From Dyella jiangningensis (lineage in GTDB: Bacteria > Pseudomonadota > Gammaproteobacteria > Xanthomonadales > Rhodanobacteraceae), in NCBI RefSeq assembly GCF_003264855.1, contig NZ_NFZS01000001.1:992001-1056000 (forward strand): a stretch of DNA of 64,000 nucleotides. The letters are read 5' to 3'. A program made the translations under genes and the position numbers. Positions within the stretch are counted from its first letter, which is position 1, and each line of letters opens with the position of its first letter. Below the pieces are notes generated by a model, which was given only the letters and a program-made list of their open reading frames with translations, was not told where the DNA came from and did not search any database. Of the stretch, positions 2,866 to 39,056 are shown one piece after another.

Positions 2866-4917
2866 TCAGTCTTCTTCCACGTGAGGCTTCCAGGCCTCGG
2901 CAAGTTGCTTCTGTACCGGCAGCGGCACGGCTTCGTAATGGCTGAGATCCAGGCTGTAGCGACCGCGGCCGCCGGTCATCGCCTTGAGCTCGGTGGGATA
3001 ATCGGTGAGTTCGGCCAGCGGCGCCTGCGCCTTGATCACCAGTTCGCCGCCACGCAGCGTATCGGTGCCGAGGATGCGCGCACGCTTGCCGGCGAGGCCG
3101 CCGGTGACGTCGCCCACGTTCGCCTCGGGAATCGCCACTTCGACGTCGACGATGGGTTCGAGCACGATCGGGCGCGCCTTGCTCACCGCATCGAGAAAGG
3201 CCTTCTTGCCGGCGCTGATGAAAGCCACCTCTTTCGAATCCACCGGATGGTACTTGCCGTCGTACACGGTGACGCGCAGGTCCTGGATCGGGTAGCCGGC
3301 GATCGCGCCCGACTCCATCGCCTGGCGCACGCCCTTTTCGATGGCCGGCAGGAACTGGTTCGGAATCACGCCGCCCTTGACCTCATCAACGAATTCGAAA
3401 CCGGCCCCGCGCTCCAGCGGTTCCACGCGCAGGAACACTTCACCGAACTGTCCCGCACCGCCGGTCTGTTTCTTGTGACGGTGATGGCCGTCGGCTCGGC
3501 TGGCGATGGTCTCGCGGTAGGCGATGCGTGGCGGGTGCGTATTCACCTCCACGCCATAGCGCTCGCGCATGCGTTCCAGCATCACTTTCAGGTGCAGGTC
3601 GGAAAGGCCGCGCACGACCGTCTCGTTGAGTTCCTTGTGGTGCTCCACGCGAAAGCACGGATCCTCTTCGGCCAGTCGCACCAACGCCTGCGAGAGTTTC
3701 TGCTCCTGGCCCTTGTGGCTTGGTTCCAGCGCCAGGCCGAACATCGGTTGCGGAAAACGCATCGGCGCGAGATGGATGCGGTCTTCGTCGTGCGAGTCGT
3801 GCAGCACGGCGTCGAAGTGGATTTCCTCGACCTTGGCGACGGCGGCGATGTCGCCCGGAATCGCCTGTTCGATCTCGTCGTGGTTCTTGCCGCGCAGGCG
3901 GAACAGGTGGCCCACCTTGAACGGCTTCTTGCTGTCGTCGATGTAGAGCTGCGTGTCGCGACGGATCGTGCCTTGCCACACGCGGAAGATGCCGAGCTTG
4001 CCGACGAACGGATCGTTGACGATCTTGAAGACGTCGGCGATCACATGCTGCGTGGGGTCGGCGTTGACGGTGATGAGCTCGTCCTCGCCGTTGCGGAAGG
4101 GCGGCGGGTTGCCCTCGTTGGGATTGGGCAGCAGGCGGTCGGCCAGCTCAAGGAATTCCTTCACGCCTACGCCGGTGCGAGCGCTGACGAAGCAGATGGG
4201 CACGAGGTGGCCTTCGCGCAGGCATTGCTCGAAGGCGTCGTGCAGTTCCTGCGGACTCAGTTCCTCTTCGCCGGCATCGAGATAGTGGCCCATGACCGAT
4301 TCGTTGATCTCCACCACCTGATCGAGGATGCGCTGGTGCGCTTCGGCCAGCGAGGAGAAATCGGTGGCGCCATCGCCGTGGAAGAAACAATCGAGCACCG
4401 CCTTGCCGCCATCGGCAGGCAGGTTCACGGGCAGGCATTGGGTGCCGAATTCGTCGCGCAAGGCATCGACCAGCGCGGCGAGGCGCGCACCTTCGACGTC
4501 GATGCGGTTGATCACCAGCACGCGCGCGAGGCGGCGTTCGTCGGCGCGCTCCATCATGCGGCGCGTGCCGTATTCGATGCCGTTGGACGCGTTGACCACG
4601 ATGGCCACGGTTTCCACGGCGGCGAAGGCGGACAGCGTGGGGCCGCGGAAATCCGCATAGCCCGAGGTATCGATGAGGTTGACGTGGCTGTTGCCGAAGG
4701 GGACGGCGGCGATGGCAGTGTCGATGGAATGGCCGCGCGCCTTTTCCTGGGTATCGGTATCCGATTGCGTGGTGCCGCGCTCCACCGACCCTTGGGTCTG
4801 GATGACGCCGCCGGCGTGCAGCAGGGCCTCGAACAGCGTGGTCTTGCCGCTGCCGGCGTGACCGGCGAGCGCGATGTTGCGGATGTTTTCCGTGTGCGTG
4901 CCTGTCTGGATATTCAT
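2866..4917 (-). CDS. EF-G-like translational GTPase (FusA2 type)
   Basis: A 683-residue EF-G homologue. The GTPase domain has a P-loop 'AGHAGSGKTT' (residues 18-27), the G3 motif as 'DTSGYADF', and 'NRID' (about 134) where canonical EF-G has NKxD. Domains II-V follow, including the domain IV region 'GGAGQFGEVFLRVEPL' and a C-terminal 'TGGRGRYSLDLSHYEAVP'. Canonical EF-G is about 700 residues and usually sits in the rpsL-rpsG-fusA-tuf operon. The isolated position and variant switch motifs indicate a second EF-G-like paralogue whose exact role (translocation, recycling or a stress function) cannot be read from sequence. ATG 4917 is chosen because 'MNIQTGTHTENIRNIALAGH' is the normal N terminus. 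The start codon and GGGG upstream both lie inside the outer stem of element A. Confidence 0.88.
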   Translation of the reverse strand: MNIQTGTHTENIRNIALAGHAGSGKTTLFEALLHAGGVIQTQGSVERGTTQSDTDTQEKARGHSIDTAIAAVPFGNSHVNLIDTSGYADFRGPTLSAFAAVETVAIVVNASNGIEYGTRRMMERADERRLARVLVINRIDVEGARLAALVDALRDEFGTQCLPVNLPADGGKAVLDCFFHGDGATDFSSLAEAHQRILDQVVEINESVMGHYLDAGEEELSPQELHDAFEQCLREGHLVPICFVSARTGVGVKEFLELADRLLPNPNEGNPPPFRNGEDELITVNADPTQHVIADVFKIVNDPFVGKLGIFRVWQGTIRRDTQLYIDDSKKPFKVGHLFRLRGKNHDEIEQAIPGDIAAVAKVEEIHFDAVLHDSHDEDRIHLAPMRFPQPMFGLALEPSHKGQEQKLSQALVRLAEEDPCFRVEHHKELNETVVRGLSDLHLKVMLERMRERYGVEVNTHPPRIAYRETIASRADGHHRHKKQTGGAGQFGEVFLRVEPLERGAGFEFVDEVKGGVIPNQFLPAIEKGVRQAMESGAIAGYPIQDLRVTVYDGKYHPVDSKEVAFISAGKKAFLDAVSKARPIVLEPIVDVEVAIPEANVGDVTGGLAGKRARILGTDTLRGGELVIKAQAPLAELTDYPTELKAMTGGRGRYSLDLSHYEAVPLPVQKQLAEAWKPHVEED

Positions 4918-5162
4918 CGCGATCCCCGCCGGAAGCTGTTTGCCCGCAAGACAAGGAAGAGTGAGGAAGCGTATGTCGATACGCGACCGAGCGATGACGC
5001 AGGATGGCGGGCAAACAGATCCGGCCCGAAGGGTTGCCCCGCCAGTGCGGGCATGCGGCCGCGCGTGGCTTGACCATGGCGCCACCATGGCCTGCGCCCC
5101 GCACGATCACCTGCCCGCGCTGGCGGGGCAACGGGGATTGCGATGAATGTCCAGACAGGCAC
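4898..5162. repeat. Three-arm structured element A
   Basis: Outer arms 4898-4928 and 5132-5162 are complementary over 31 nt with two G-T pairs. Inside are two hairpins. Hairpin 1 has a 12-bp stem, 4936-4947 with 5007-5018 (CTGTTTGCCCGC), and an apical stem GCGTAT-GTCG-ATACGC at 4969-4984. Hairpin 2 has a 19-nt stem, 5033-5051 with 5114-5132, and an apical stem CCATGG-CGCCA-CCATGG. The left arm contains the first codons and start codon of the EF-G-like gene; the right arm is an inverted copy of them. Element C (38790-39056) has the same plan. Confidence 0.85.
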
Positions 5163-5513
5163 TAACACGATGCGACCCTCCCATGGCTGGGCGCGGAATC
5201 GTGCCGACGATGACCTGCGGCGCCGCACGAAGCCGCGCAAGCGGCTGACGATGGCGGGCCGTCATGGTCGTCCAGGCGTGCAGGACGCGGGGGCGGTCAT
5301 GGCGGATACGGCCGGAGAGGCCGTTTGACTAGGGTTTCCCCAATGCCTCGAAGGGTCAAGTTGCAGTGCGGGGAAGAGGGAACCCGACGGCGCGCAGCTT
5401 GTCACCTGAAGTCTCCCCTCGCATGGCAGGAAGGAACCTGGCCATGCGGTTGTTCCGCCCCAAGAAGGGAATCCCCCATCGAACGTACCGAGCAGGTCGA
5501 ACATCATCGCTGG
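5163..5513. other. Intergenic stretch, no gene recognised
   Basis: This stretch separates element A from the first TonB-like gene. Short ORFs exist (for example 5143-5328) but start inside the right arm of element A and carry no domain. The downstream gene is open as far back as 5325, so part of this stretch could be coding if a more upstream start is used; no convincing ribosome binding site supports that. Confidence 0.4.
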
Positions 5514-6458
5514 ATGCCGCCCGGGCCGTCGACTCGCGGATTGGCGCCCCTCGATGGCCCCACGCGCGCGCTGTTGCACCAGATGCGCTGGCGCCAGGCG
5601 CCGCCCGATCGGGGGCGCCGCCGGGTGGCGCTCGCCCTCGTGCTGGCATTGCATGTGTTGTTCGCGCTGCTGACCTGGCATGAGCTGCGGCTGCGTGCGC
5701 TTGAGGAGACCCACGCTGGCCGGCGGGACGCGCTGCAGGTGCGCCTGATCCCCGCGGCGGCGCCGGCAGCGCCGTCCGCGGTGCCGGAGATGGCGCCACC
5801 ACCGCCACCACCACCGCCCAAGCCTGTCGTGCGCGAGCCGCCGGCGAAACAGGCGATGACCGTGACCTTGCCCGGGCCGCCACCGGCGCCGCCCGCCACG
5901 GTGGCGACAGCGCCGCAGCTCTACGACGCCACCGGTGAGCCGAAGCTGCCCGCCTCCGCCACGAGCGCACCGGCAACGCCCGCTCCCGGTTACGTGCAGC
6001 GCACGCCGCAGGGCGATACCCAGGTGATGAAGCACGACAGCCCGATCACCTACCAGGCGACGCGTTTCGACAAGGATTGGAACGATGGCGCGAGTTCCGT
6101 CGACGATGCGCTGAAGCGTGCGGTGGACAAGACCACGGTGACACATACGTTCCACATCGCGCCCGGCGTGCGCATCCACTGTGCGGTCGCGCTGGCCGCG
6201 CTCGCGGGTGGTTGCGGCGGCGATCCGCCGCCGAAGCCCACGAGCAAGAGCGCCGACATGCGCCTCAACATGGCACCCGCCAATCCGCTGGTGCCCGATA
6301 TGCCCGCGCCGAAGGGGCCGAGCGTGGAGGAATGCATCGCCATCTATCGCGCGGACAAGCCGCTGCCGCAGGGCTGTCCTGTCGACACGCCCACGCGTGC
6401 CGTCGATGCCGAGATGCGCGAGCACTCGCAACCTCCCGCCCATCCTGCAGGCCATTGA
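5514..6458 (+). CDS. TonB-like proline-rich membrane protein, paralogue 1
   Basis: About 314 residues from ATG 5514; the frame is open from 5325 and the start is uncertain. A single hydrophobic segment 'VALALVLALHVLFALLTW' (residues about 37-55) follows basic residues, as in TonB-type inner-membrane anchors. A periplasmic Pro/Ala-rich linker with eight consecutive prolines comes next. The C-terminal region (about 160-272) is not a TonB CTD. It shares with the next gene the block 'YQATRF.KDW', 'SS.D.AL..AV.KTT..HTF....GVR', a CGGD.PPKP motif and 'M..AP.NPLVP'. Similar proteins in xanthomonads have been annotated as 'transmembrane repetitive protein'; function unknown. It probably forms a two-gene operon with the next gene, 68 nt downstream. 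Confidence 0.7.
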   Translation: MPPGPSTRGLAPLDGPTRALLHQMRWRQAPPDRGRRRVALALVLALHVLFALLTWHELRLRALEETHAGRRDALQVRLIPAAAPAAPSAVPEMAPPPPPPPPKPVVREPPAKQAMTVTLPGPPPAPPATVATAPQLYDATGEPKLPASATSAPATPAPGYVQRTPQGDTQVMKHDSPITYQATRFDKDWNDGASSVDDALKRAVDKTTVTHTFHIAPGVRIHCAVALAALAGGCGGDPPPKPTSKSADMRLNMAPANPLVPDMPAPKGPSVEECIAIYRADKPLPQGCPVDTPTRAVDAEMREHSQPPAHPAGH

Positions 6459-6526
6459 GCGCCGATAGGGCGCCGTAACATGCCCGGCCCACACAGAATG
6501 TCGGCGGTGCCCGCTACACTGCGCGC

Positions 6527-8461
6527 ATGGAGAGGGAATCCGTAAGCCGGCTGACCGTGACGTTGCCATCGCCTAAGTCGGCGGCGGAGAGTGCGTTCGT
6601 CTATCGCCGGCGCCGCACGGAGCGCGCGCGTGAACGCTGGCTGCGTATCCTCGGCCTCGTCGGTGCCCTGCTCGTGCACCTGGCCTTTCTCTTTGGCGCG
6701 GTGCTCGGCTCGGCGTACGAGATGGAAGAAAGCGAGGAAGCGAACACGCCGCTCGTGGTGCGCCTGATCGAAAAGCCCAAGGAGGAACCCCCTCCACCGC
6801 CGCCCGTTCGCGGTACGCCGCCCAAGCAGGTCGGCCCGGTGCACAAGGGCAACGCCAGCAATGCGCCGCGCACGGCGAGGCAGAGCAGTTCGTCCACGCG
6901 CACCAACACCGAACTCTCGCCGGTGCCGGTGCCGGCGTTGCAGACGCCGGTGATCGCGGAGACGCCGACGGCGAGCGCACCCAAGCCCACCATCACGGCG
7001 GCGCCGCTGCCGCCGGTGAGCGTGCCCAAGCCGGCGCCCACGGAAACCCTGCAGCCGGTGCCCGCCGCGCCGGAGCCGCCGCAGGTGACGCTGGAAACGC
7101 CGCCCACCGCCAAACCGACGCCGCCGAAGTTCCAGCCGGAGCCCGTGCGCAAGCCGCAGGCCGAAGGCAACCAGCCGCCGCCACCACCGGCATCGATGGC
7201 GATCGAGGAGCTGCCGCCGCAGTCCGCGCCCACCGTGACGCCGCCCACCATCGCGATGGAGAAGGCGGTGCCGGCCAACACCCGCCCCAGCATCGCGCCG
7301 GTCACGCGTGCCGAAGAGCCGGTGGCTCCGCCGGAGCCTGAAATGCAGGCCGTGCCGCTGCCCGCGCAGGCAGCGCCGACAGTCAACCTGCAGCCGCAGC
7401 CCAGCACCGTCACCGCCGTGGTGCCGCGCGAGCAACCCCAGGTGGAATCGCCGGCGATTCGCGTCGCCGAGCCGGAACTGGAGGCGGTACCGCTTCCGCC
7501 CCATCCGCAGCCGAGCCTGGAACGCCCCCAGGCGCCGCGCCTGCAGGCCGTGGCGCCGACGGCGATCGCGGTGGACAACAAGCCCTCCATCGCGCGCCCG
7601 CAGATTTCGGTCGAGACGCCGTCGGAGGCGCCCTCGAACCAGCCGAGTGCAGCCTCGTCGCCGTCTTCGTCGCAGGCGCAGAACGCGTCGAGCGCGCAGG
7701 CCAGCGCCACCGGCAATCAGACAAGCCAGTCGACCGGCGAGCAGGGCGTGAGCAGTGCGCCCAACGCCACGCCGCAAGGCAGCAACACGGGAACACCGGG
7801 CCAACCGAACGGTAGCAACCAGTCCACCGCAACGACGCAGGGCAACGGGCTCAATCTCTCGCTGCCACCGGGACAGGGCAGCGGCCAAGGTTCCCACGGG
7901 CAGGGTTCGCCATCGGGGCAGGGCGAGCAGGGCGTGACTGGCACGTATGTGCAGCTCAAGCCGCACGGCAATACCGAGATCATGTCGCATGGCACGCCGA
8001 ACATCGGCTATCAGGCCACGCGCTTCGAGAAGGACTGGACGCCCGAAGGCGAAAGCTCGATCGACACCGCACTGCGACATGCGGTGGAGAAGACCACGCT
8101 GCGCCACACCTTCAACCTGCCGCGCGGCGTGCGCGTCGAATGCGTGGTGATGCCGCTGTTCCCGGTCGCGTTGTTCGGTTGCGGCGATGGCAATCCGCCG
8201 CCCAAGCCCGTCGACGACGTGGTCTACGACAGGATGAAGCTGGCTCCCACCAACCCGCTGGTGCCGCCCGCGCCGTCCACGGCAGGTGCGCCCACCATGG
8301 CGACGGTCAAGCTGGACAACAGCGCGCAATGCGCCGCGGCGCGCGTGGCCGGTGGCCCGCTGCCGGCCGGATGCACCAACCTCGACCCGGTCACGGTGCC
8401 CACCGGGCCCGCGCGTTCCGGCAGCACGTCATGGGTGCCGGCGAGCGACCAGTTTCATTAG
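6527..8461 (+). CDS. TonB-like proline-rich membrane protein, paralogue 2
   Basis: A 644-residue protein with the same architecture as its upstream neighbour: a basic N terminus ('YRRRRTERARERW'), one membrane span 'ILGLVGALLVHLAFLFGAVL' (about 41-60), a very long Pro/Ala/Thr-rich linker with repeated 'P.L.AV.P...V' phrases, then a Ser/Gln/Gly/Asn-rich stretch (about 360-465). It ends in the shared C-terminal block from about residue 468 ('YQATRFEKDW', 'SSIDTALRHAVEKTTLRHTF', CGDG.PPPKP, 'NPLVP'). The linker is several times longer than in paralogue 1, which suggests reaching across the periplasm. No TonB CTD or Tol domain was recognised. Its TAG stop codon touches the left arm of element B. 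Confidence 0.75.
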   Translation: MERESVSRLTVTLPSPKSAAESAFVYRRRRTERARERWLRILGLVGALLVHLAFLFGAVLGSAYEMEESEEANTPLVVRLIEKPKEEPPPPPPVRGTPPKQVGPVHKGNASNAPRTARQSSSSTRTNTELSPVPVPALQTPVIAETPTASAPKPTITAAPLPPVSVPKPAPTETLQPVPAAPEPPQVTLETPPTAKPTPPKFQPEPVRKPQAEGNQPPPPPASMAIEELPPQSAPTVTPPTIAMEKAVPANTRPSIAPVTRAEEPVAPPEPEMQAVPLPAQAAPTVNLQPQPSTVTAVVPREQPQVESPAIRVAEPELEAVPLPPHPQPSLERPQAPRLQAVAPTAIAVDNKPSIARPQISVETPSEAPSNQPSAASSPSSSQAQNASSAQASATGNQTSQSTGEQGVSSAPNATPQGSNTGTPGQPNGSNQSTATTQGNGLNLSLPPGQGSGQGSHGQGSPSGQGEQGVTGTYVQLKPHGNTEIMSHGTPNIGYQATRFEKDWTPEGESSIDTALRHAVEKTTLRHTFNLPRGVRVECVVMPLFPVALFGCGDGNPPPKPVDDVVYDRMKLAPTNPLVPPAPSTAGAPTMATVKLDNSAQCAAARVAGGPLPAGCTNLDPVTVPTGPARSGSTSWVPASDQFH

Positions 8462-8751
8462 GGCAACACTGACTTAAATATCGCCGTCGTCACCCGCCCT
8501 GTCTGTTCGCAAGCCATAGGGCCGTTGGCGAAGGCAGACTGGCCGTCTGTCGAGCCAACGGACCGAAGGCGTGCGAACAGACAGGGCGGGCCCAACCGGT
8601 CGAATTTTTCAATCATAGGGTGATGCCTGGAAGGCTCGCCGGCTGCGCCGCGAGGCTTGGCAAGACGGCCAGTCTTCCCGGCGCCACGCAACACAGCCGG
8701 CGAGCCTTCCAGGCATCATGACGATGGCGATACTTAAGTCAGTGTTGCCCT
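8460..8751. repeat. Three-arm structured element B
   Basis: Outer arms 8460-8490 and 8721-8751 pair over 31 nt with two mismatches (they begin AGGGCAACACTGACTTAA). Hairpin 1 has a perfect 19-bp stem (8493-8511 with 8572-8590), an inner CCGTTGGC/GCCAACGG stem (8522-8529 with 8554-8561) and an apical CAGAC-TGGCC-GTCTG. Hairpin 2 has a perfect 25-bp stem (8621-8645 with 8694-8718) and an apical AAGAC-GGCCA-GTCTT. 'GGCTTGG' before and 'GCGCCACGCA' after the hairpin-2 apical stem also occur, with small changes, in element C. The element fills the gap after the TonB-like gene. Confidence 0.87.
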
Positions 8752-8855
8752 AGGTAAAACTACGCGGTCGCGCTGCGAAGTTTTGCGCTACCGGGCGCCA
8801 TGCCCGCAGTTCATGCTCGTGCACATCATCATGACGATCAGCCGTGAGGTGCAGC

Positions 8856-11429
8856 ATGCGCGCGATGCGTTGGCTAGGCCTGATGCTGGCGCTTGCCCTG
8901 CTGGCGGGCATGCCCGTTCATTCGCAACAGGGCGGCAAGGCCGCGCCGTCACCAGGCAATGCGGATTTCCGCGAGTGGCCGCATACCTTCGATATCGATG
9001 GCGTGCATATGGTGCTGCATCATCCGCAGCTCGACAGTTGGGTGAATGGCCAGCTCAAGGGACGCATCGCCGTGGCGGTGAAGACCGGCATGCAGGTCGG
9101 CAGCGATGGCAAGTCGCATGACGTGATGGCGTACGGCGTCGCCTGGGTCACTGCGCGTACCGAAACGGACAAGGTGCTGCGCCAGGTGACGTTGTCCCAG
9201 GTCACCGTCGACAAGGTGTCGTTTCCCACCGAGGCCGCGCAGCAGTCGCGCTATCTCGACGTGTTGCGCAAGATCGCCGCACGCAGCCACCAGGTGGCCA
9301 ACCTCGACACGATGGAAGCTTCGCTGGCGATCAGCCAGCAGGAGAACGACGTGAAGAACGAGGCGGTGCGCAACGATCCGCCGCAGATCATCTTCTCGTT
9401 CAAGCCCGCGCTGCTCGTGCTGATCGATGGCGCGCCGGCGAGCAAGCCGTCGGGTACGGCCGGCGTCAATCGCATCGTGAATACGCGCTCGCTGATACTG
9501 CAGGTGGGCTCGCAGTACTACCTCACGTTCGCGGGTCGATGGGTGAGGGCGTCGTCGCTGGATGGCCCATGGACACTGACCAAGGCGCCGCCTCCGGCCG
9601 TCACCCAGGCCGCGCACGCGCCGGCGAACGCCAAGCAGGTCGACACGCTGGAGAATCCATCGGAAGCACTGAAGAAGGTGCTCGACTCCGGGCAGTTGCC
9701 GGAGATCTACGTGCGTTCGCAGCCGTCGGAACTGATCATGGTGGACGGCGACCCGCAGTTCGCGGCGATCGAAGGAACGCAGCTCGCTTACGTGAGCAAC
9801 ACGGCGTCCGACGTGTTCGTGGATCAGGCACATGGCCTCACGTGGTACGTGCTGATTTCCGGCCGCTGGTTCACCGCCGAGTCGACCAACGGACCTTGGC
9901 GCTACGTGGCGGGTGAATCGTTGCCGGCCGATTTCGCCAACATCCCGCCGGACAGCCCCAAGAGTGCCGCGCTCGCGTCGATTCCCGGTACGCCGGAGGC
10001 GCGTGAGGCCTTGATCGCCAACAGCATCCCGCAGACAGCCACGGTGAACAGCCACACGGCGGTGCTTCATCTGCGCTATGACGGCGCGCCGCAGTTCCGT
10101 CCCATCGAAGGCACGACGCTGTCGTATGCATGGAATACCGAGGCGCCGGTGATCCGCGTGGACAACACCGCGTACTACGCCGTGCAGAACGGCGTGTGGT
10201 TCACCGCGGGCAATCCCAACGGGCCGTGGTCGGTGGCGCTGGAAGTGCCGTCTGTGATCTATTCGATTCCGCCCAGTTCGCCGCTGCATTACGTCACCTA
10301 CGTATTCGTCTACGGGCACGAAGGCAACGATGTCTACGTCGGTTATTCGCCGGGCTACTACGGCACCGTGGTGAGTGGTGGCGTGGTGGTGTACGGCACC
10401 GGTTACGCGTGCGATCCGTGGGTGGGCAATGACATCTGGTACGGCTGCCCGGCCACGTATGGTTTCGGCGTGTCCTTCGGCTGGACGCCATGGGCCGGCT
10501 GGGGCTTCGGCTACGCATGGGGATGGGCGTGGGCTTCCGCGTGGTACGGACCGTGGTGGGGCCCTTGGGGTTATTGGGGTTACTACCCCGGCTATTACCC
10601 CGGTTATTGGGGCGGCGCGATCGCGGCAGCCAACGTGTACGGTCGCTGGGGCAACGCGGTGGTGTCGGGACAGGTCGCAGGCTGGGCCAATCCGTGGACG
10701 GGCAACGTCGGCCGCGCGGGTCGCGGCGGCTACTACAACGAAGCCACCGGCGGTCGCGGCGTGGGCTATGCAGGACGCAACACCAACATCTATACCGGCA
10801 CCACCACGGCGGCCGCAGGCGGCATCCGCTACAACCCGCAGACCGGCCGCGTGGTCGGCGGCCAGGGCGGGGCGGCGGTGAATCCGTATACCGGCAACGC
10901 CGTGGCCGGTGGCACACGCACCGTGGCGAACACGAACACGGGGCGCGTCACGCAACAGGCAGGTGTTGCCGGCCGTACCGATCAAGGCGCAGGCGCCGCG
11001 GGTGCATTCAATTCACAGGGCGCGGGTGGCGACGCGCGCGGTGCGGGCTATGTGCACTACGACAAGGCGACCGGCGACGTGAGCCGCGGCGGCGTGGTGG
11101 ACATCAACGACAAGGTGTACGCCGGCAAGGACGGCAACGTCTATCGCTACGACAAGGACCAGGGCTGGCAGAAGGTCGACAACAAGGGCGACTTCAATCG
11201 GGTGAACGGGCCGGACAGCGCCGACACGAATCGTGATCGCATGGCGCGCGATCGCAGTGCGGACAGTGCATCGTTCCAGCAGCGCGAGCAGGCACGCCCG
11301 CAACAACGCCAGCAGTTCGACCGCAGCAATTACAACAGTCGCTATCACGGCCAGATGGGCGGTTTCCGCGGATCAGCCGGTGGCGGGCGCTTCGGTGGCG
11401 GACGAATGGGGGGCGGGTTCCGCCGTTGA
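8856..11429 (+). CDS. Large exported Gly/Tyr/Trp-rich protein (carbohydrate-binding V/XII-like annotation class)
   Basis: About 857 residues with a signal peptide ('MRWLGLMLALALLAGMPVHSQ'). Three related modules follow, near residues 185-245, 291-350 and 405-470. Each runs from a 'DG.P.F..I.GT.L.Y..NT' strand through 'YY....G.WF.A....GPW'. A CDPWVGND segment (about 514) precedes an extreme Trp/Tyr/Gly-rich stretch (about 541-588). After that come Asn/Thr/Gly repeats ('NPYTGN', 'YNPQTGR'), a 'YVHYDKATGDVSRG ... VYAGKDGNVYRYD' segment and an Arg/Gln-rich tail ending GGGRFGGGRMGGGFRR. Homologues are often labelled carbohydrate-binding protein; no enzymatic motif is visible. ATG 8856 is chosen because GAGGTG precedes it; GTG 8844 is the alternative. 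Confidence 0.75.
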   Translation: MRAMRWLGLMLALALLAGMPVHSQQGGKAAPSPGNADFREWPHTFDIDGVHMVLHHPQLDSWVNGQLKGRIAVAVKTGMQVGSDGKSHDVMAYGVAWVTARTETDKVLRQVTLSQVTVDKVSFPTEAAQQSRYLDVLRKIAARSHQVANLDTMEASLAISQQENDVKNEAVRNDPPQIIFSFKPALLVLIDGAPASKPSGTAGVNRIVNTRSLILQVGSQYYLTFAGRWVRASSLDGPWTLTKAPPPAVTQAAHAPANAKQVDTLENPSEALKKVLDSGQLPEIYVRSQPSELIMVDGDPQFAAIEGTQLAYVSNTASDVFVDQAHGLTWYVLISGRWFTAESTNGPWRYVAGESLPADFANIPPDSPKSAALASIPGTPEAREALIANSIPQTATVNSHTAVLHLRYDGAPQFRPIEGTTLSYAWNTEAPVIRVDNTAYYAVQNGVWFTAGNPNGPWSVALEVPSVIYSIPPSSPLHYVTYVFVYGHEGNDVYVGYSPGYYGTVVSGGVVVYGTGYACDPWVGNDIWYGCPATYGFGVSFGWTPWAGWGFGYAWGWAWASAWYGPWWGPWGYWGYYPGYYPGYWGGAIAAANVYGRWGNAVVSGQVAGWANPWTGNVGRAGRGGYYNEATGGRGVGYAGRNTNIYTGTTTAAAGGIRYNPQTGRVVGGQGGAAVNPYTGNAVAGGTRTVANTNTGRVTQQAGVAGRTDQGAGAAGAFNSQGAGGDARGAGYVHYDKATGDVSRGGVVDINDKVYAGKDGNVYRYDKDQGWQKVDNKGDFNRVNGPDSADTNRDRMARDRSADSASFQQREQARPQQRQQFDRSNYNSRYHGQMGGFRGSAGGGRFGGGRMGGGFRR

Positions 11430-11465
11430 GCCTCGCGGTCGCTCGGCTGCAGTGCCTTCTATTGC

Positions 11466-11592
11466 CGTCATTCCGGCGCAGGCCGGAATCCAGTGGCGGT
11501 CAGGCTCGGTTGTCGCGATCAACCTTCGCGGATTTGCTACACGCGACAACCGATCGCTTTGCAACTGGATTCCGGCCTGCGCCGGAATGACG
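11466..11592. repeat. VIPAQAGIQ/WIPACAGMT-type inverted repeat
   Basis: Two perfect complementary 29-nt arms (11466-11494 and 11564-11592, core GTCATTCCGGCGCAGGCC) enclose a second perfect 11-bp inverted pair CGGTTGTCGCG/CGCGACAACCG (11507-11517 with 11542-11552). Translation gives the phrase VIPAQAGIQ...WIPACAGMT that recurs as spurious protein in many proteobacteria. It lies exactly between two convergent genes and could end transcription from both sides. Confidence 0.9.
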
Positions 11593-11600
11593 AGTGACAA

Positions 11601-12182: not shown

Positions 12183-12270
12183 GGCATGGCTCCATGGCAG
12201 AAAGCCCGCGCGAAACGGCGGGCGTCGGCCGGATTGTGCGGTGCGCTTTGTGGAGGCCACGCGATTGCGA

Positions 12271-12304
12271 TCCGGCAGGCTGACTTACTTAAGTAAGTGC
12301 CGGC
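12271..12304. promoter_or_regulatory. Perfect 16-bp palindrome within a bulged hairpin
   Basis: ACTTACTTAAGTAAGT (12283-12298) is a perfect palindrome, flanked by CCGGCA on the left and TGCCGG on the right. It lies between the stop of the PlpD-like gene and the start of the downstream lipoprotein gene (both minus strand). It could be an operator for the lipoprotein gene or a processing/termination structure; there is no T-run to prefer termination. Confidence 0.4.
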
Positions 12305-12318
12305 TGCGTCGCCGCGGG

Positions 12319-25837: not shown

Positions 25838-25851
25838 AGCCGCACTTCTCC

Positions 25852-25889
25852 CTCTCCCCTGTGGGGAGAGGGCCGGGGTGAGGGGCGGG
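25852..25889. repeat. CCCTCACCCC-type repeat, left flank of the DUF559 gene
   Basis: Hairpin CTCTCCCC-TGT-GGGGAGAG (25852-25870) followed by GGCCGGGGTGAGGGGCGGG. It then reads TGCTCGCC, the complement of the GCGAGCA seen at the outer edge of the unit at 1577. It is in inverted orientation to the unit at 26256-26300, so the two bracket the DUF559 gene. Confidence 0.85.
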
Positions 25890-25925
25890 TGCTCGCCACT
25901 ACGCAACAATCAGGGACGCTCAAGG

Positions 25926-26321
25926 ATGAAGCGTTTGAACGTAGACCGGGCGCGTGGATTGCGTGCAGGTCAAACCGATGCCGAACAGCTGCTGTGGCGT
26001 CATCTGCGCAATCGTCACCTCCAAGGCTGGAAATTCCGCCGCCAACACGAAATCGGTCCGTATATCGCCGATTTCGCCTGTCCTGATGCTGGCCTGATGG
26101 TGGAGCTGGACGGTGGGCAGCATGGCGAGCAGCTGGCATATGACGAATCGCGCACGCGAAAGCTCCAGGAAGAGGGTTATCGCGTGCTGCGTTTCTGGAA
26201 CAATGATGTCCTGAAGAACACTGACAGCGTGCTAGAGGCAATTCTGGAGGCTTTGGCCAGCCCCGACCCCTCACCCCGACCCTCTCCCCGGAGGGGAGGG
26301 GGAGCATGCAATGGAGACTGA
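25926..26321 (+). CDS. DUF559 (Vsr/PD-(D/E)XK-like) endonuclease-domain protein
   Basis: A 131-residue DUF559 protein. Conserved features are 'AEQLLWRHLRNR' (about 19-30), FRRQHEIGPYIADFACPDA (about 38-56) with the first catalytic Asp, VELDGGQH (about 61-68) and 'GYRVLRFWNNDVLKN' (about 87-101). The fold is related to very-short-patch-repair endonucleases; the natural role of most members is unknown. The last 19 codons or so (from about residue 113, 'DPSPRPSPRRGGG') are read from the flanking repeat, so the repeat has supplied the C terminus and stop. ATG 25926 is preceded by AAGG. The gene splits lysAC from murL. Confidence 0.85.
   Translation: MKRLNVDRARGLRAGQTDAEQLLWRHLRNRHLQGWKFRRQHEIGPYIADFACPDAGLMVELDGGQHGEQLAYDESRTRKLQEEGYRVLRFWNNDVLKNTDSVLEAILEALASPDPSPRPSPRRGGGACNGD
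26256..26300. repeat. CCCTCACCCC-type repeat, right flank of the DUF559 gene
   Basis: CCCCTCACCCCGACC is followed by the hairpin CCTCTCCCC-GG-AGGGGAGG (26281-26300). It is the inverted partner of the left flank at 25852-25889. It overlaps the 3' end of the DUF559 reading frame and ends 24 nt before murL. Confidence 0.85.
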
Positions 26322-29059: not shown

Positions 29060-29078
29060 CGCACACTGGCGCCTTGCA

Positions 29079-29795: not shown

Positions 29796-29904
29796 GGAGC
29801 GATTCTGCCATCACGCACGCATCGCCATGCAAGAAGGGCGTTGCCCGCGGCCGTTGCCAAGGCCTAGCATCGAACGGTGTCGACCTTACTGGAGCGCCCG
29901 CGTC

Positions 29905-30372: not shown

Positions 30373-30434
30373 AGGCGACACCCAACCGGCAGGCATACAC
30401 TGGGCGTCTCGCCGCCGTTGCCGAGGTGATTGTC

Positions 30435-30812
30435 ATGAGCGATCCATCGCGTTTGAAGTGGCTGCGCATCGCCCTCGTGGTGCTAGGGGTTCTATGTCTG
30501 GCTCTCTATCCGCTGATGCGGGTTTGGCCGTCCGGATGGGCGTGGCACGAGGGCTACTCGGACTATCCGATGATGATCGTGGGCATCTACGCCACGCTGG
30601 GTGTGTTTCTCATACGCGCTGCACGCGATCCGTTCGCCAACCTCAGCCTGATCTGGTTCACCGTGTGGTCCAGCGTGGTGCATGGCGGGATCATGGCGGT
30701 GCAGGCGTTGAGCCATGCGGAGCACATGGGGCATCTGTGGGGTGATGTGCCGGCATTGTTCATCGCGGCCATCGTGCTGGCGGTGTTGATGCCGAGGCCG
30801 GCGAAAGTGTAG
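30435..30812 (+). CDS. Small four-helix membrane protein (DUF6632-like)
   Basis: A 125-residue protein with four hydrophobic segments: 'LRIALVVLGVLCLALYPLM', 'MMIVGIYATLGVFLIRAA', 'LIWFTVWSSVVHGGIMAV' and 'VPALFIAAIVLAVLMP'. Conserved-looking polar residues (His in VVHGG and SHAEHMGH) lie between helices 3 and 4. This resembles small integral membrane proteins of unknown function (DUF6632). ATG 30435 has GAGGTG at good spacing; GTG 30426 is the alternative. Confidence 0.78.
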   Translation: MSDPSRLKWLRIALVVLGVLCLALYPLMRVWPSGWAWHEGYSDYPMMIVGIYATLGVFLIRAARDPFANLSLIWFTVWSSVVHGGIMAVQALSHAEHMGHLWGDVPALFIAAIVLAVLMPRPAKV

Positions 30813-30827
30813 GCATCGAAGTGTTGA

Positions 30828-30893
30828 ATCGCGCACTGGGTGCGCTCCTACAAAAGAGCGGTGCCTCTGTAGGAGCGCACCCAGTGCGCGATC
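30828..30893. repeat. GTAGGAGCGCACCC-type inverted doublet
   Basis: A minus-oriented copy (30828-30852) and a plus-oriented copy (30868-30893), 15 nt apart. They lie between the convergent membrane-protein and M13 peptidase genes and could serve as a bidirectional terminator. Confidence 0.88.
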
Positions 30894-30957
30894 CACGAAA
30901 CGAAAGAGCCACGCCCCATGCGAGACGTGGCTCTGGTCTACGCACTCACTCGAACGC

Positions 30958-33036: not shown

Positions 33037-33127
33037 GAGCGGTCTCCTGGGGTCATGAAAAGACAGCAACGATAGTCCCTTGGCCTGTCGGGTGGGGCAT
33101 GACTTTTGGGCTAGGGGCAACTCCATC

Positions 33128-33211
33128 TGTAGGAGCGCACCCAGTGCGCGATAAGCCAACGGAGCGGTGACGCTGGAACGCTGCGGTCGCGCACTGGGTG
33201 CGCTCCTACAG
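33128..33211. repeat. GTAGGAGCGCACCC-type inverted doublet
   Basis: A plus copy (33128-33152) and a minus copy (33183-33211) face each other in the gap between the M13 peptidase start and the tamB stop, both minus-strand genes. Confidence 0.88.
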
Positions 33212-33225
33212 AAAACTCGCGAACC

Positions 33226-36200
33226 CTACCGCTCGTAACGGTAGTTCAGGCTCGCCCGGTTGAATTCGGTGGCGTTCTGCGCCTCGAAGTTCCAGTGCTG
33301 GCTGAAGTGGTAGCGCAGGGTGATGACCTGGCCGGGATCGAACAGGCCGACGCCGTAGCTCAGGTAAAGCCGTGGCGAGAGGTATTTGCCGACGGTGAAG
33401 GCGGAGCTGCCGTTCAGCGCATCGCTGCTGCTGACGCCTACGTCGTCGAATCCGAGGCGCGAGCCGATGCTCTTGGCCAGCAGGTTGCCCGTGGCCGAGC
33501 CCAACGCCTGGGCCGCGGCGCCCACCATGTTGCCTTCGCCGCCCTTTACCTGCGACAGCGGCTTGCCGGTAACGAGATAGGAAAGCGCGTCGGATTGCTC
33601 CATCACCGGCTGCGAGAACACCGTGAGCGTCGGTCGCTGTGCGGTGCCGGCGACATACAGGCCCACCTTCTGTCCATCGTCGATGGTGGCGTTGGGATTG
33701 AGCTTGCGGACGGCGCGGATGTTGAGGCCGGGATTGTCGATCGGTGTGGTGGCGAACAGCAGCTGGCCGCGCTCGATCTGCAGGTTCTGGCCGTAGGCCT
33801 TGTAGGTGCCATCGACTTCGATCTGGCCCTGGCCCGTGGTGGCGCGACCGGGGCGCTCGCTGACGACCAGTTGGCCATGCAGTCGACCGTCCAGCCCCAT
33901 GCCGACCAGGTGCGCCTTGTCGCCGAGTTTCACCGTGACACTGGCGGTGATCGGCATGTGGCTGGCCTGTTCCTCCTGCTGCTTGTCGTCGATCACCACG
34001 ACGTCCGGCGAGGCCTTGGTGGCACCCGCGCCTGGCAGCTTGTCGAGGTTTACGTCGGCGCTGTCCAGCGCGACGCTGCCGGTGATGTCCAGCCCCTTGG
34101 CGTCGTGCCGCACGGCGAGGTCGGGCGAGATCGCCACCTTTGCGGCGGGAATATCGACGGCCTTGAAGTTGCTGCCCTTCACCGAAAGCAGGCTTTGTGC
34201 ATCGCTGCCCAATGCCGCACTGCCGGCAAGCACCAGGTTGCCGTCGCCCGAATGCACCGTGCCATCGAGGCGGAAATGCCGTGCGTCGGTGGTGCTCACC
34301 GCCACGCGACCCTGGCTCAGCTTGAGGCCCATCGCGGGGATCTCGGCGGCGAAATCGCTGATCGTCGCCTGACCGTTCACCGCCGGCTGTGACACCGTGC
34401 CGCCGAGACCGAAGTCGGCGTTGATGGCGCCCTTGGGATTCACCACTTCGGTGGTGAAGATCTCGAGCAGGGCAAGGTTGCTCACGTGCAGCGACACCTG
34501 CCCGGCCAGCGCCTGCTGTGCACCGCTGATGCTCACCTGGCCGTCCAGACGTCCGTTGTTGGTCAACCCCGCATGCAGGTCGATGCGCTGGCTCGATGGG
34601 CTGAGCTGCGCATTGGCGGCGAGGTTGTTGTAGGTGACCAGCGGTTCGTCGGGGCGGTCGGCATAGGCGATGGAACCGTGCGACGAGGTAATGGACGCGT
34701 TGCCGCTGAGCGCGCCGGCCGCGTTGCGGCGGATGTTGCCATCGCCCTCCAGCGAGCCTTCCACGCGCATCGGGACCTTGGCCGTGCTGGCCGCGCTCAT
34801 CAGCAAGGCGATGGGCAGGCTGCGCAGGCGATAGCTGGCGTCGAGGTTGCCGGCCTTGTCCTGTTTGGCGGCGGCACACAACAGCGGATCACCCGCGGTC
34901 AGGCACAACTCGGACAGGCTCATCGCGCCGTCGTTGTACGACAGCGCGGTGGATTGCTGCAGCCGCCAGCGAGGCAGGCCGGCGAGATCGATGTTGAGCG
35001 TGGAGAGCGTGCCGCTCCACGCCGAACCCTTGAGGCTGCCGCTCAGCGCGAGATCGGTCGACAGCGGCGAGCCATGCGCATCGAGCGTGAGGCTGTGTCG
35101 CTCCGCCGTGCCATCGCCGCGCACGTTTACCTGGGTGAAGGCGAGGCCGCCCGCGTTGACGCCGCTCGTCTGCAGGTCGAGCTTGCCGCCGGGCCGGCTG
35201 ATGTCGGGTACGTTGGCGAGCAGGCGCAGGCTGTCGATGTGCTGGCCGGCATAACTCAGCGCGCTGCCCTGCAGGTGGGTGTCCACGGCCAGCTTCGGGT
35301 ACTTGCCCTGCACGCGGATCGTGCCCTGCAGACGGCCGGCGGAATCGGGCAGCCAGTCGCCCAACGTGGCCACGGCGAGCTTGATGGTGGCGTCGTTGCT
35401 GGCGCCAGGCTTCGCATCGATCTGCACGTCGCTGCCGCCGGAGACGAGATGCAGCTTGCCGTCGACCACGCCTTCCGGCGGCAGGTGAAGCTTGCCGTCA
35501 CCATGCACGGTGCGTTCGCGCAGGCGCCCGTCGAACTTGCGGATATCGAGCGTGACGTCGGGATGGCCTTGCGGCAGCGTGCCCTGTGACGCGATGTCGA
35601 AATCGAGCGAGCCATTCCACTTGGCCAGCACGTGTCCTGGATCAAAGCGATTCGCCGTCGCTTCCACCTGCCACCCAAGCGCAGGTTGCAGCACCAGCGT
35701 GCCCTTGGCCTGCATCTGCCCTTGCGGTTGCTTGACGGTAAGCGCGTGCAGGTCGATCTGCTTCTGCGTGCCATCCAGATCGAGCGTGACATCGGCAAGC
35801 TTGCCCGGTGCACCGATGGCGAGGTCACCACTGGCGTGGAACTGGTCGGCGCTGCCCTTGGCCCTGAGGCTGCCGTGGCTCTGCAGTACCTGGCCAACCA
35901 GGTTCTCGGGCAATTCGACATCTTTCCAGTCGAGCGTGAGGTCGGCCGACAACGGCTGCGCGCCCAGAGCCACCACGCCATGCGCACCGACGTCGCCCTT
36001 GAACTGTGGCGAGGCGAGCGCGAGCTGCTCGATCGTCAGCGTCTTGAGGTCCTCACTGAAGCGCGCGGTGAGGGGCCGCAGCTGCAGCTGGTAGTCGTTG
36101 AGGTCCAGCTGGCCCTGCAGGTTGCCGCTGCGTCGATCACCCTTGCCGTCGAGCGCCACGGCCAGTCCGGTCAGCGAGCGTTCGCCCATCAGCGGCTTGG

Positions 36201-37011
36201 GGTCGAAACGCGGCGCATCGAGTCGCGCAGTCCATGCGTAATCGCCGCCCTGTGCCCACTGCAGTTGCAGGCGCGTCGCCATGGGTTGGGTGAGCTGCAG
36301 GTCGAGACGCGCCTGCTGGCCGTCGCCGTGCACGGCAACTTCGCCTGCGTATTGCGTGCCGCTGACCGTCCACGCGAAGGCCGCCTTGCTGTCACCGCGA
36401 TATTTGCTGCCGATGCCCATGGTGCCGGTAAGATCGGCATGGCCGTCCGGCGCGCGCAAGGCGAGCTGGCGCAGCTCGATACCGCGACGGGTCCAGCTGC
36501 CGGCGAGGTCGAGCGTGTTCGAAGCGAACAGCGGCTTGCCCGCCTGCGTGATTTTCACCGTACCGACGTGCACGCGGTCGAGCAGGATATCGAGCGGCGG
36601 CTGCAGCGAAAAGCTGCTTTGGTTGTCCGGTGTCTCTTCGCTCTTGGGCAGGGCGACATCCACGCCGTCCACGTTGAGGTCGAATACATGTGCGCGCTTG
36701 TGCAACAGCGTCGTGACGCTGAAATCGAGATGCGCCTTCGCCACCTTCACGTCCAGTCCCTTGCCGTCGGCGTAGCGCACGTCGGCAAGATCCAGCGGGC
36801 CGAGCAGGCGCCCTTGCGCGGATTGCACGGTGAGCGCGCCCTGCGTGAATCCTTCGGCGCGCGCCAGCGCAAAACGCAGGCCAGAGGCCGTGCCGACAAG
36901 CCAGCCCACGGCGAGCAGCAGCAACAGCAGTAGTGCCGCGAGCAACAGCACCGTCCAGCGCAGCCAATGGCGGCGGGGCTTGGGCGCAGTGGCAGGCGTG
37001 GCGGCATTCAT
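33226..37011 (-). CDS. tamB: Translocation and assembly module subunit TamB
   Basis: A 1261-residue protein, nearly identical in length to E. coli TamB (1259). One N-terminal membrane anchor ('WTVLLLAALLLLLLLAVGWL', residues 19-38) is followed by 'ARAEGFTQGALTVQSAQGRL', typical of AsmA/TamB proteins. A long beta-rich repetitive periplasmic region forms the lipid-conducting groove. The C-terminal DUF490 domain includes 'YGQNLQIERGQLLFATTPID' and 'YLSPRLYLSYGVGLFDPGQV'. TamB spans the periplasm and works with TamA in outer-membrane homeostasis, including phospholipid transport. It starts 10 nt after the tamA stop, indicating an operon. Confidence 0.94.
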   Translation of the reverse strand: MNAATPATAPKPRRHWLRWTVLLLAALLLLLLLAVGWLVGTASGLRFALARAEGFTQGALTVQSAQGRLLGPLDLADVRYADGKGLDVKVAKAHLDFSVTTLLHKRAHVFDLNVDGVDVALPKSEETPDNQSSFSLQPPLDILLDRVHVGTVKITQAGKPLFASNTLDLAGSWTRRGIELRQLALRAPDGHADLTGTMGIGSKYRGDSKAAFAWTVSGTQYAGEVAVHGDGQQARLDLQLTQPMATRLQLQWAQGGDYAWTARLDAPRFDPKPLMGERSLTGLAVALDGKGDRRSGNLQGQLDLNDYQLQLRPLTARFSEDLKTLTIEQLALASPQFKGDVGAHGVVALGAQPLSADLTLDWKDVELPENLVGQVLQSHGSLRAKGSADQFHASGDLAIGAPGKLADVTLDLDGTQKQIDLHALTVKQPQGQMQAKGTLVLQPALGWQVEATANRFDPGHVLAKWNGSLDFDIASQGTLPQGHPDVTLDIRKFDGRLRERTVHGDGKLHLPPEGVVDGKLHLVSGGSDVQIDAKPGASNDATIKLAVATLGDWLPDSAGRLQGTIRVQGKYPKLAVDTHLQGSALSYAGQHIDSLRLLANVPDISRPGGKLDLQTSGVNAGGLAFTQVNVRGDGTAERHSLTLDAHGSPLSTDLALSGSLKGSAWSGTLSTLNIDLAGLPRWRLQQSTALSYNDGAMSLSELCLTAGDPLLCAAAKQDKAGNLDASYRLRSLPIALLMSAASTAKVPMRVEGSLEGDGNIRRNAAGALSGNASITSSHGSIAYADRPDEPLVTYNNLAANAQLSPSSQRIDLHAGLTNNGRLDGQVSISGAQQALAGQVSLHVSNLALLEIFTTEVVNPKGAINADFGLGGTVSQPAVNGQATISDFAAEIPAMGLKLSQGRVAVSTTDARHFRLDGTVHSGDGNLVLAGSAALGSDAQSLLSVKGSNFKAVDIPAAKVAISPDLAVRHDAKGLDITGSVALDSADVNLDKLPGAGATKASPDVVVIDDKQQEEQASHMPITASVTVKLGDKAHLVGMGLDGRLHGQLVVSERPGRATTGQGQIEVDGTYKAYGQNLQIERGQLLFATTPIDNPGLNIRAVRKLNPNATIDDGQKVGLYVAGTAQRPTLTVFSQPVMEQSDALSYLVTGKPLSQVKGGEGNMVGAAAQALGSATGNLLAKSIGSRLGFDDVGVSSSDALNGSSAFTVGKYLSPRLYLSYGVGLFDPGQVITLRYHFSQHWNFEAQNATEFNRASLNYRYER

Positions 37012-37021
37012 CGCGGCGTTC

Positions 37022-38782
37022 TCATAGATCCGGGCCGATCACGACATGCAGCTCCACGCCATGCTCATCGGGATTGCTCACCGGTGTGCCCAGGTCTACG
37101 CGGATCATACCCACCGGTGACAACCAGCGTACGCCCAGGCCGGCGCCTATCTTCGGCCGGTAGTCGGTGTTGTCGAAGGCGTTGCCCGCGTCGACGAAGG
37201 CCGCCATGCCCCAATTCTTGGTGAAGTAGTGTTCGACCTCGGTGCTGCCCACCAGCAGGTTCTTGCCGCCGATCACTCGACCGTAGGAATTCTTGGGGCC
37301 GATGCTCTGGTAGCTGTAACCACGCACGGAGCGGTCGCCACCGGCGAAGAAGCGCAGCTGCGGCGGCAGGTCGCTGAAATCGTTGGTCCAGGTCATGCCG
37401 GCGGAACCGCGCAGGATCAGTCGATTGCGGCCCCAGAACGAGGTGATCCACTTCGCGTCGGCGGTGACCTGGCTGAAGGCCGCATCCGACAGCAGGCCGC
37501 CTACGGTGCTGCGTGCCGCCAACGTCAACGACCAGCCGCTGCGCACGAAGATCGGGTTGTCTCCGGATTTGCGCGACAGCGACACCTCGGGATAGAACAG
37601 GTCGCTGCGGCCGTGTTCGATACCCGGCGCGTTGTCGGGCTCGCCATTCTTCTGGCCCACGGTGAAGGTGCCGTCCAGCGCATGAATGCCGATGGTGCGT
37701 ACCCAGCCATGCCACTGGCGCGTTTCGTTGGCGACGAGCTCCAGTGTCTTGGAATGCGACGTGTCGGTATCGGAATCGCGATAGGTGGCGCCGTAGTTGA
37801 AGCTGCGCTGGTTGGGTCCGGGCATCGGCACGGAATACAGCGTGGAAAGCGTCTTGAGCTTCTGCGCGATGACGAGCTCGTTCTTCCACTTGTGGCCGCT
37901 GCGATTCACCCAGCGGCGTTCGCTGCCCACGCGTATGCCCACGCCGGTATCCGTGCCGATGAACGGGCCGCCGGTGTAGATCGTGCGCTTGGCGGGCACC
38001 AGTTCCACCTTCACCGCGACCACGCCGTTGTTCTTGTCGTCGACATCGGGCAGCACGTTGACGACGGAGAAGTAGTCCGCGCCATTCAAGGCCTGCTGCA
38101 GCTGCAGCAGCTTGTCCTGGGCGAAGTAATCGCCTGACTTGAAGGGCACGTAGCGCTGCAGGAACCCCGGCTTGAACTGGGAGCCTTCGAAATGCACCTC
38201 GCCGAAGCGATAGCGCGGGCCTGCTTCCCAGGCGAGCTGGATCACGGCCGTGCGTTCGGCGCGATTCACTTCGACGCGATGCGTGACCAGGCGCGCATCG
38301 AGGAAGCCGTTGGCGGTCAGCGCGCCGCTCAGTGCATCGCGCGTGGAGTCGTACTCACCGTGGTTGAGCGTCTGTCCCTTCAGGTTCTCGACGTTTCGCT
38401 TGGCGCGGCGAATGGCGGGGATGGACGCGGCCGTCTCGTCGAGCTTGAGGTTCACCGCCGTGACGGTGACCGGTGGTCCCGGCTTCACGTGCAGCGTCAC
38501 GCGCCAGTCGGTGCCGACGGGCTCGAGCTGGCCCTGCACCGTCGCCTCGTAGTAGCCGTAAGGCTCGAGTGCGCTTTTCGCCTGATCGAGCGCCTGGTTG
38601 TACAGGCGCTTCACCTGCGCCTCGGTCACATCGCGATTGGCGTACTGCGAAATATCCACGCCCGAGGTGACGGCGAGCTTCAGCGGATCGTCCACGCCAT
38701 CCACCGAGAGCTGGACACCCGCGTGCGCCAGCCACGGGGCCAGCAGGAGCGGCAGCAGCGTCAGGCGGCTGATTCGGCGCAT
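37022..38782 (-). CDS. tamA: Outer-membrane translocation and assembly module TamA
   Basis: A 586-residue BamA-superfamily protein (E. coli TamA is 577). A signal peptide (residues 1-20, 'LTLLPLLLAPWLAHA') precedes POTRA domains (about 22-260; 'YGYYEATVQGQLEPVGTDWR', 'ANGFLDARLVTHRVEVNRAE', 'YRFGEVHFEG'). The 16-strand barrel carries the signature 'FFAGGDRSVRGYSYQSIGPK' and ends 'GVELHVVIGPDL'. It partners TamB. ATG 38782 is fixed by the signal peptide; no strong ribosome binding site is visible. Element C begins 8 nt upstream of the start codon, so the mRNA leader probably carries this structure. Confidence 0.93.
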   Translation of the reverse strand: MRRISRLTLLPLLLAPWLAHAGVQLSVDGVDDPLKLAVTSGVDISQYANRDVTEAQVKRLYNQALDQAKSALEPYGYYEATVQGQLEPVGTDWRVTLHVKPGPPVTVTAVNLKLDETAASIPAIRRAKRNVENLKGQTLNHGEYDSTRDALSGALTANGFLDARLVTHRVEVNRAERTAVIQLAWEAGPRYRFGEVHFEGSQFKPGFLQRYVPFKSGDYFAQDKLLQLQQALNGADYFSVVNVLPDVDDKNNGVVAVKVELVPAKRTIYTGGPFIGTDTGVGIRVGSERRWVNRSGHKWKNELVIAQKLKTLSTLYSVPMPGPNQRSFNYGATYRDSDTDTSHSKTLELVANETRQWHGWVRTIGIHALDGTFTVGQKNGEPDNAPGIEHGRSDLFYPEVSLSRKSGDNPIFVRSGWSLTLAARSTVGGLLSDAAFSQVTADAKWITSFWGRNRLILRGSAGMTWTNDFSDLPPQLRFFAGGDRSVRGYSYQSIGPKNSYGRVIGGKNLLVGSTEVEHYFTKNWGMAAFVDAGNAFDNTDYRPKIGAGLGVRWLSPVGMIRVDLGTPVSNPDEHGVELHVVIGPDL

Positions 38783-38789
38783 GCAGTCT

Positions 38790-39056
38790 AGAGCCTGTTT
38801 ATGCTCTCCCCGCAGCCCGCGCCGGGATCTATTTGCTCGCAGGCACAGGAGGAACGAGGAGGTGTATGGCGATACACAACCGAGCGATAACGCCGGCATG
38901 CGGGCAAATAGGCCCGGCCCGGAGGGTTGCCGTTGAGTGGCCGCCATGCGACAGCGCGCGGCTTGGCCTGACAGCCAGTCAGGCCCGCGCCACGCACTAT
39001 CACCTGACGACCACTCAACGGCAACGCGGACTGCGGCGAGAACATAAACAGGCTCT
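38790..39056. repeat. Three-arm structured element C
   Basis: Outer arms 38790-38820 and 39026-39056 pair over 31 nt with three mismatches. Hairpin 1 has a 12-bp stem, 38829-38840 with 38900-38911 (CTATTTGCTCGC), and an apical stem GTGTAT-GGCG-ATACAC. Hairpin 2 has a 17-nt stem, 38926-38942 with 39009-39025, and an apical stem GCCTGAC-AGCCA-GTCAGGC. Order, stem lengths and the sequence around the apical stems match element A, although the arm sequences differ. The remaining 39057-39163 has no recognisable gene. Confidence 0.86.

Follow-up and report, generated by a model that had tools for sequence, protein, structure and literature searches.

Three-arm folded repeats of Dyella jiangningensis, a family with features of small mobile DNA elements

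We analyzed a 64,000-nucleotide stretch of the Dyella jiangningensis genome (hereafter, the window; contig NZ_NFZS01000001.1, positions 992,001 to 1,056,000), in which an earlier note had described three elements, A, B, and C, each built of an outer stem and two long hairpins. All three lie on the plus strand where the note had placed them, A at 4898..5162, B at 8459..8752, and C at 38790..39056, and each folds far beyond its shuffled versions: the computed fold energy is −193 kcal/mol for A (z −14.8; 0 of 200 shuffles fold as well), −221 kcal/mol for B (z −18.3; 0 of 100), and −163 kcal/mol for C (z −11.0; 0 of 200). The stem strings that the note quoted are present in the sequence, together with their compensatory changes between copies. 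An inverted-repeat search of the window recovers the outer arms of A, B, and C (complementary at 89%, 94%, and 91%, respectively), both hairpins of B, and, in A and C, hairpin 2; their hairpin 1 is seen in the computed folds and is not in the inverted-repeat list.

Element A pairs a left arm at 4891..4928 with a right arm at 5132..5169, and between them stand hairpin 1 with a tip of G.A mismatches (the GA ladder) plus the mini-hairpin CCCGAAGGG (4926..5035; hairpin-1 model match at G000:C1:996926-997035, E 2.4e-23) and hairpin 2 (5033..5132). Element C, the query of our first DNA search, is arranged likewise, with outer arms at 38790..38821 and 39025..39056, hairpin 1 with GA-ladder tip and mini-hairpin at 38819..38928 (E 1.6e-21), and hairpin 2 at 38926..39025. 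Element B has ends of the form TAGGGCAACACTGACT..., outer arms at 8459-8492/8719-8752, hairpin 1 at 8493..8590, and hairpin 2 at 8621..8718. The plan of an outer stem and two hairpins therefore holds for all three elements, and A and C also possess a small fourth arm, the mini-hairpin CCC-GRA-GGG, located between the two long hairpins. The three had been taken as one family; we assign A and C to type 1 and B to a sibling, type 2, which has the plan and the hairpin-2 tip in common with type 1 and differs in its ends and in hairpin 1. The common tip is a 42-nt match between hairpin 2 of B and that of C (42 aligned bases), which scores 26 as compared with at most 12.5 in 300 shuffles. The type-2 profile, of which B is itself a row, scores B at 339 bits.

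In the left arm of A (4898-4928) lie what are probably the first codons of an EF-G-like gene, and the arm's pairing partner is sequence upstream of the gene's start. The open reading frame in question covers 2866-5088 on the minus strand, with EF-G domains from residue 67, and its in-frame ATG at 4917, which is codon 58 (the start codon at 4915-4917, minus strand), is the probable start as judged from the sequence. Another genus has a related element in the corresponding position (L097, flanks 78.6%), and domestication of some copies is possible. Chance reading frames also traverse the element. Among type-1 elements generally, 50 of 141 neighboring stop codons fall 0-9 bases from an element edge (by rough gene calling), and orientation relative to the neighboring genes is mixed.

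A search with a model of hairpin 1 found further copies. The model (R1), built from 19 type-1 copies, has 20 strong type-1 matches in the 4.76-Mb genome that holds the window (E < 4e-18), and more in relatives. Type-1 elements measure about 267 bp, or about 265 bp without later inserts. Nine type-2 copies were found, B plus eight, by applying the profile to the loci collected from this genome, so that the figure is not a whole-genome count. The genome of the window is included in each of the following counts. Hairpin 1 of type 1 is patchy in the genus, where 18 of 20 genomes have it (E<=1e-6; 1 to 26 copies, with two genomes lacking it); the bacterial family has it in 68 of 147 genomes, from 17 of 26 genera, and the class in 24 of 274, from 21 of 222 genera. 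Among the matches listed for a looser pattern are Dyella, Rhodanobacter, Luteimonas, Candidatus Thiodiazotropha, Thiohalobacter, and several metagenome-assembled genomes (MAGs). One match to this loose ladder pattern, on a Euryarchaeota-MAG contig (L465, 7351-7372), has no hairpin-model match and is probably due to chance or mis-binning. The looser pattern had no match in IMG/VR, phages had none for C or for one distant element, and plasmids had none for C and four partial matches for one distant element.

Individual copies show further rearrangement. Two type-1 copies lie about 700 bases apart (L003 and L005, at G000:C4:857118 and 857844). Three type-2 copies (L020, L024, and L025) hold further small inserts: a 24-base unit is found in all three, and L020 and L025 also have a hairpin-forming unit of 45 bases, after which comes TTGAGGAGCGAGGAAGG, a tail that recurs in the type-1 copy L016. 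The loci L362 and L363 of genome G276 are collapsed elements, bare end-to-end palindromes GGGCCTGTTAACAGGCCC, and L519 includes a 61-base outer stem without hairpins (3903-3964); these three are perhaps deletion remnants.

For a general anatomy of type 1 we used 176 full elements found in the genus and in the family, omitting 18 of 194 distinct elements that have no full outer stem. The outer stem of 32 bp starts with GAGCCTG, continues through a stretch of about 16 bases whose letters differ from copy to copy, and closes with CCCGCG; it is Watson-Crick paired in 94% of cells (5294 of 5632), and the end motif conserved in type 1 and its relatives is G-R-G-C-C-T-G. Four tandem G.A mismatches, with ordinary pairs between them, form the ladder at the tip of hairpin 1; the four positions read GA/GA in 158, 165, 161, and 127 of the 176 elements. 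This tip is kept across many bacterial families, while the inner part of the outer stem varies in sequence. The GA-ladder hairpin is found on both strands, once each way, in 27 distant elements, making these elements near-palindromic. From such sequence comparisons, Dyella type 1 would appear to be a chimera of a GA-ladder hairpin like that of the distant elements and a second hairpin like that of type 2. No covariance model of Rfam 15 matched the window or six distant loci at gathering score; laxer settings gave five microRNA-like matches and one small nucleolar RNA match, all far below the cut-offs. We found no description of the family in Rfam or in the literature searched, where strings of element sequence retrieved a single paper, which concerns E. 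coli fimbriae. That search did not extend to ISfinder or to subscription journals, so an earlier description is possible.

Type-1 elements are mobile, a property that the earlier note had not put forward. When the flanks of a copy are joined as if the element were absent, the resulting junctions match same-genus genomes for 9 of the 9 copies tested (of 20 in the genome of the window), among the matches listed, with identities of up to 96%; in all, 20 junctions were aligned. By analogy, type 2, and hence B, would be mobile as well. Exact TNA repeats border 29 of the 176 full elements, compared with 13.8 expected by chance. A young burst in a distant genome, G364, comprises 29 copies with a mean identity of 98.8% to their consensus, and among its copies with readable edges YTA stands on the left in 28 of 29 and TAR on the right in 28 of 29. 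Shortened derivatives with one or no hairpin exist as well (L012, L018, and L519). In being short, dispersed, and bounded by terminal inverted repeats, the 176 full elements resemble miniature inverted-repeat transposable elements (MITEs), and the nine empty sites in relatives supply the insertion expected of such elements.

The earlier note's claim that the stems covary beyond chance is borne out. In hairpin 1 of the 19 type-1 copies, 93.5% of cells are paired and 12 of 36 pairs have two-sided changes, and the covariation score is 0.188, as compared with 0.095 for shuffled alignments (0 of 500 reaching it) and at most 0.059 for slid ones. A set of 73 distinct hairpins, drawn from 55 chosen loci of which nearly all belong to other gammaproteobacterial families, has 94.8% of cells paired, two-sided changes in 32 of 36 pairs, and a score of 0.584 (0.178 shuffled; at most 0.128 slid); this alignment was fitted to the model and often includes both hairpins of one element. 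The note had held that a lack of further copies, or stem changes that do not compensate, would count against its proposal; further copies exist, and the changes are largely compensatory.

How the stems change can be followed in copies of different age. Of 34 ortholog pairs, we counted the 14 with near flanks of at least 85%, since some of the others look like independent insertions in one gap. In these same-insertion pairs, stem positions are changed on both arms in 12 instances (counted without a check of pairing) and on one arm in 28, and three of the pairs, those among L007, L119, and L128, are not independent. These pairs show that pairing is maintained once an element has inserted. In none of the 14 is the element less conserved than the adjacent 60+60 bases. 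The young copies comprise 29 of 32 in G364, 12 of 22 in G276, and 9 of 11 in G175 taken with G323, the rest being short, partial, or other repeats. Here, distinct paired both-arm variants number 3 against 23 single-arm variants in G364, 7 against 42 in G276, and 10 against 26 in G175 with G323. Both-arm cells, which share ancestry, amount to 7, 11, and 16 in the same order, unpaired ones (three in G276, one in G175 with G323) being set apart; 0.07, 1.23, and 0.50 would be expected at random sites, and the highest counts in 2000 simulations were 3, 6, and 3. Young copies hold many single-arm changes, which rules out that stems are rebuilt at each move. In G364, variation is somewhat rarer at paired positions (26 of 208) than at unpaired ones (13 of 57; p 0.06). 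We saw no loop inversion in oriented loops, and an apparent case came from unoriented loci.

Single departures from pairing bear on whether the fold matters as RNA or as DNA. In the variable stems there are 110 G.T and 117 A.C departures: the outer stem leans slightly to G.T (81 against 64; p 0.18) and hairpin 2 to A.C (29 against 53; p 0.01). These counts exclude the fixed G.T position and the outermost pair, and also the deeper pairs of hairpin 2, among which A.C is the more common. Young copies give 24 against 23 as distinct variants and 38 against 31 as cells. The excess of G.U over A.C expected of a selected structured RNA is absent from the totals. Because G.T and A.C departures balance overall, the pairing is kept by a process without consistent wobble preference, which may be selection at the DNA level, arm-to-arm copying, or both; and because pairing selected in an RNA should favor G.U on one strand throughout, the data lean toward pairing selected as DNA more than as RNA. 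The earlier note had invoked selection on a folded RNA or single-stranded DNA form. Of this, the maintained fold stands, arm-to-arm copying may account for some of the covariation, and the choice between the two forms tilts to DNA.

We consider it somewhat probable that A, B, and C are small, non-autonomous, MITE-like mobile DNA elements, with a fold that is important in its DNA form. The enzyme that moves them would come from elsewhere in the cell and would recognize the ends together with the hairpins as folded in extruded or single-stranded DNA. Pairing would be kept at the DNA level because that enzyme reads folded hairpins of DNA, helped by arm-to-arm copying in replication, and the stem letters outside the recognized parts would drift. 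The GA ladder speaks for this account, since repair of pairing alone would erase its mismatches. A broader proposal, which we offer as speculative and think unlikely, is that the Gammaproteobacteria harbor a superfamily of mobile DNA recognized as cruciforms, in which the G.A-ladder hairpin would serve as the address label and the mover would be a type of enzyme new to such repeats.

Several results weigh against the reading as folded mobile DNA. That the enzyme reads the fold, and not the ends alone, is a step that we infer. One outer-stem position has a fixed G.T in 100 of 176 elements, which would suit RNA or one DNA strand. The neighboring bases suggest a TNA target, but junction lengths, as judged by eye, change by −2 to +3, which gives no single size for a target duplication. 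None of the four transposase domains to which the enzyme search was limited tracks the copies: PF01609 is absent from 15 of the 20 genus genomes, including that of the window; PF13340 is above cut-off in 0 of the 20; PF13358 is matched by 3 of the 18 genomes that bear the element (by one of them below cut-off) and, below cut-off, by one of 10 genomes without a hairpin-1 match; and PF01797 (Y1_Tnp) is found in 12 of the 18 as against 7 of the 10. A gene-bearing relative with the same exact ends was recognized in none of 8 genomes, where exact ends turned up as pairs spaced by about 265 bp, as lone ends, and in a few short forms.

Other candidates were set aside in the course of this search. Transposases of the IS4/IS5, IS630, and Y1 types are rejected as the driver, as the four domains tested do not track the copies. 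Two long candidates for gene-bearing elements, L418 (3349 bp) and L519 (1919 bp), each consist of two adjacent elements, and the frames between the two of L519 resemble ordinary genes. The neighborhoods L061-L117 show no recurring gene family that might be a founder, beyond a few small groups and the frames that run through the element. Six lone ends in G276 (L366, L370-L372, L377, and L378) belong to another repeat, which has the same GGGCCTGTTNACA end motif and, in at least five of the six, GTAG-type GCGGCCTGGAGGCCGC palindromes, with no three arms; the shared ends may link this palindrome repeat to the three-arm elements. The window has GTAG-type palindromes of its own, CTGTAGGAGCGCACCCAGTGCGCGA and its complement in inverted pairs at 1372-1468, 30825-30895, 33126-33212, and 57186-57315, which we take to be, probably, repetitive extragenic palindromes (REPs) of the usual kind. 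Two further inverted-repeat sets lie in the window, CTCCCTCTCCCC... at 25848-26304 and 46389-46547, and CGTCATTCCGGCGCAGGCC... at 11466-11592 and 43770-43872.

Three other explanations deserve weight. The elements could encode a structured RNA, a regulator or messenger-end element, that is under selection and happens to spread by transposition. Strong covariation and conserved tips are what such an RNA would leave, GA ladders are known in RNA, and the G.T fixed in one strand of the outer stem has a counterpart in a hairpin-1 pair with G.T in 9 of 19 copies. The overlap of A with the probable EF-G-like start, the element at the same place in another genus, the conservation of elements relative to their flanks in all 14 same-insertion pairs, and the crowding of stop codons near element edges all fit a function in transcripts. 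Yet G.T and A.C departures balance overall when the fixed mismatches are set aside, also among the distinct young variants, no Rfam model matches at gathering score, the 27 distant elements present the ladder on each strand, and the orientation to genes is mixed; we therefore hold an RNA to be improbable.

It is also conceivable, though we doubt it, that the pairing is unselected, with template switching in replication keeping the arms matched and the elements being passive debris of transposition. Template switching that fixes stems is described in published work (PMC8794818, PMC8604942), and both-arm changes arise here even in young copies, above the expectation for random sites. The same process should, however, have erased the GA ladder and the fixed G.T mismatches, which persist, and the inverted hairpin loops that would be its trace are missing from the oriented loops. 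Rather unlikely, too, is an ordinary MITE of an insertion sequence family that is recognized by its terminal repeats only, its internal hairpins being irrelevant. Short conserved ends with TNA, the TA found in G364 at 28 of 29 edges on each side, and the derivatives that have lost one or both hairpins would all be natural for such an element, but none of the four transposase domains follows the copies, and the GA-ladder tip is kept across many bacterial families while the inner outer-stem letters vary.

The elements can be compared with known repeats. Like the bacterial MITEs (Correia/NEMIS, ERIC, RUP, and RPE; PMC2229807, PMC3733652), they are small, dispersed, and folded, with terminal inverted repeats; unlike them, they combine three long arms with a mini-arm and a GA-ladder tip, their stem letters differ between copies yet stay paired, and no parent element was found. 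The CIR repeats of Caulobacter and Brucella (PMC2229807) are likewise intergenic and have two long arms joined by a linker, but they measure about 110 bp, contain the motif GANTC, and are described there without pairing of the two ends. REP and REPIN sequences with their REP-associated tyrosine transposase (RAYT, Y1) offer a parallel as palindromic DNA thought to be mobilized by an enzyme acting on it (PMC8266576). REPs and REPINs are GTAG- or CGTC-tagged units of 20-40 bp, in contrast to an element of about 267 bp with GAGCCTG ends, and Y1_Tnp has no match in 6 of 18 element-bearing genomes. The R families of Pseudomonas fluorescens (PMC2718517) are intergenic, several have long inverted repeats, and some are possible MITEs; they span 50-352 bp, and the three-arm plan is not among the features given in the part of that source at hand, the comparison being by description only.

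It is customary to read covariation as proof that an RNA is under selection. In this family covariation is very strong, it comes without consistent wobble preference, and it can be seen arising already in young copies of mobile DNA, so that the family stands as a warning against calling RNAs from covariation alone. Its young and old copies together allow template switching and selection to be told apart. If it is true that an enzyme reads the fold, these elements would represent a new system of structure-guided DNA mobility.

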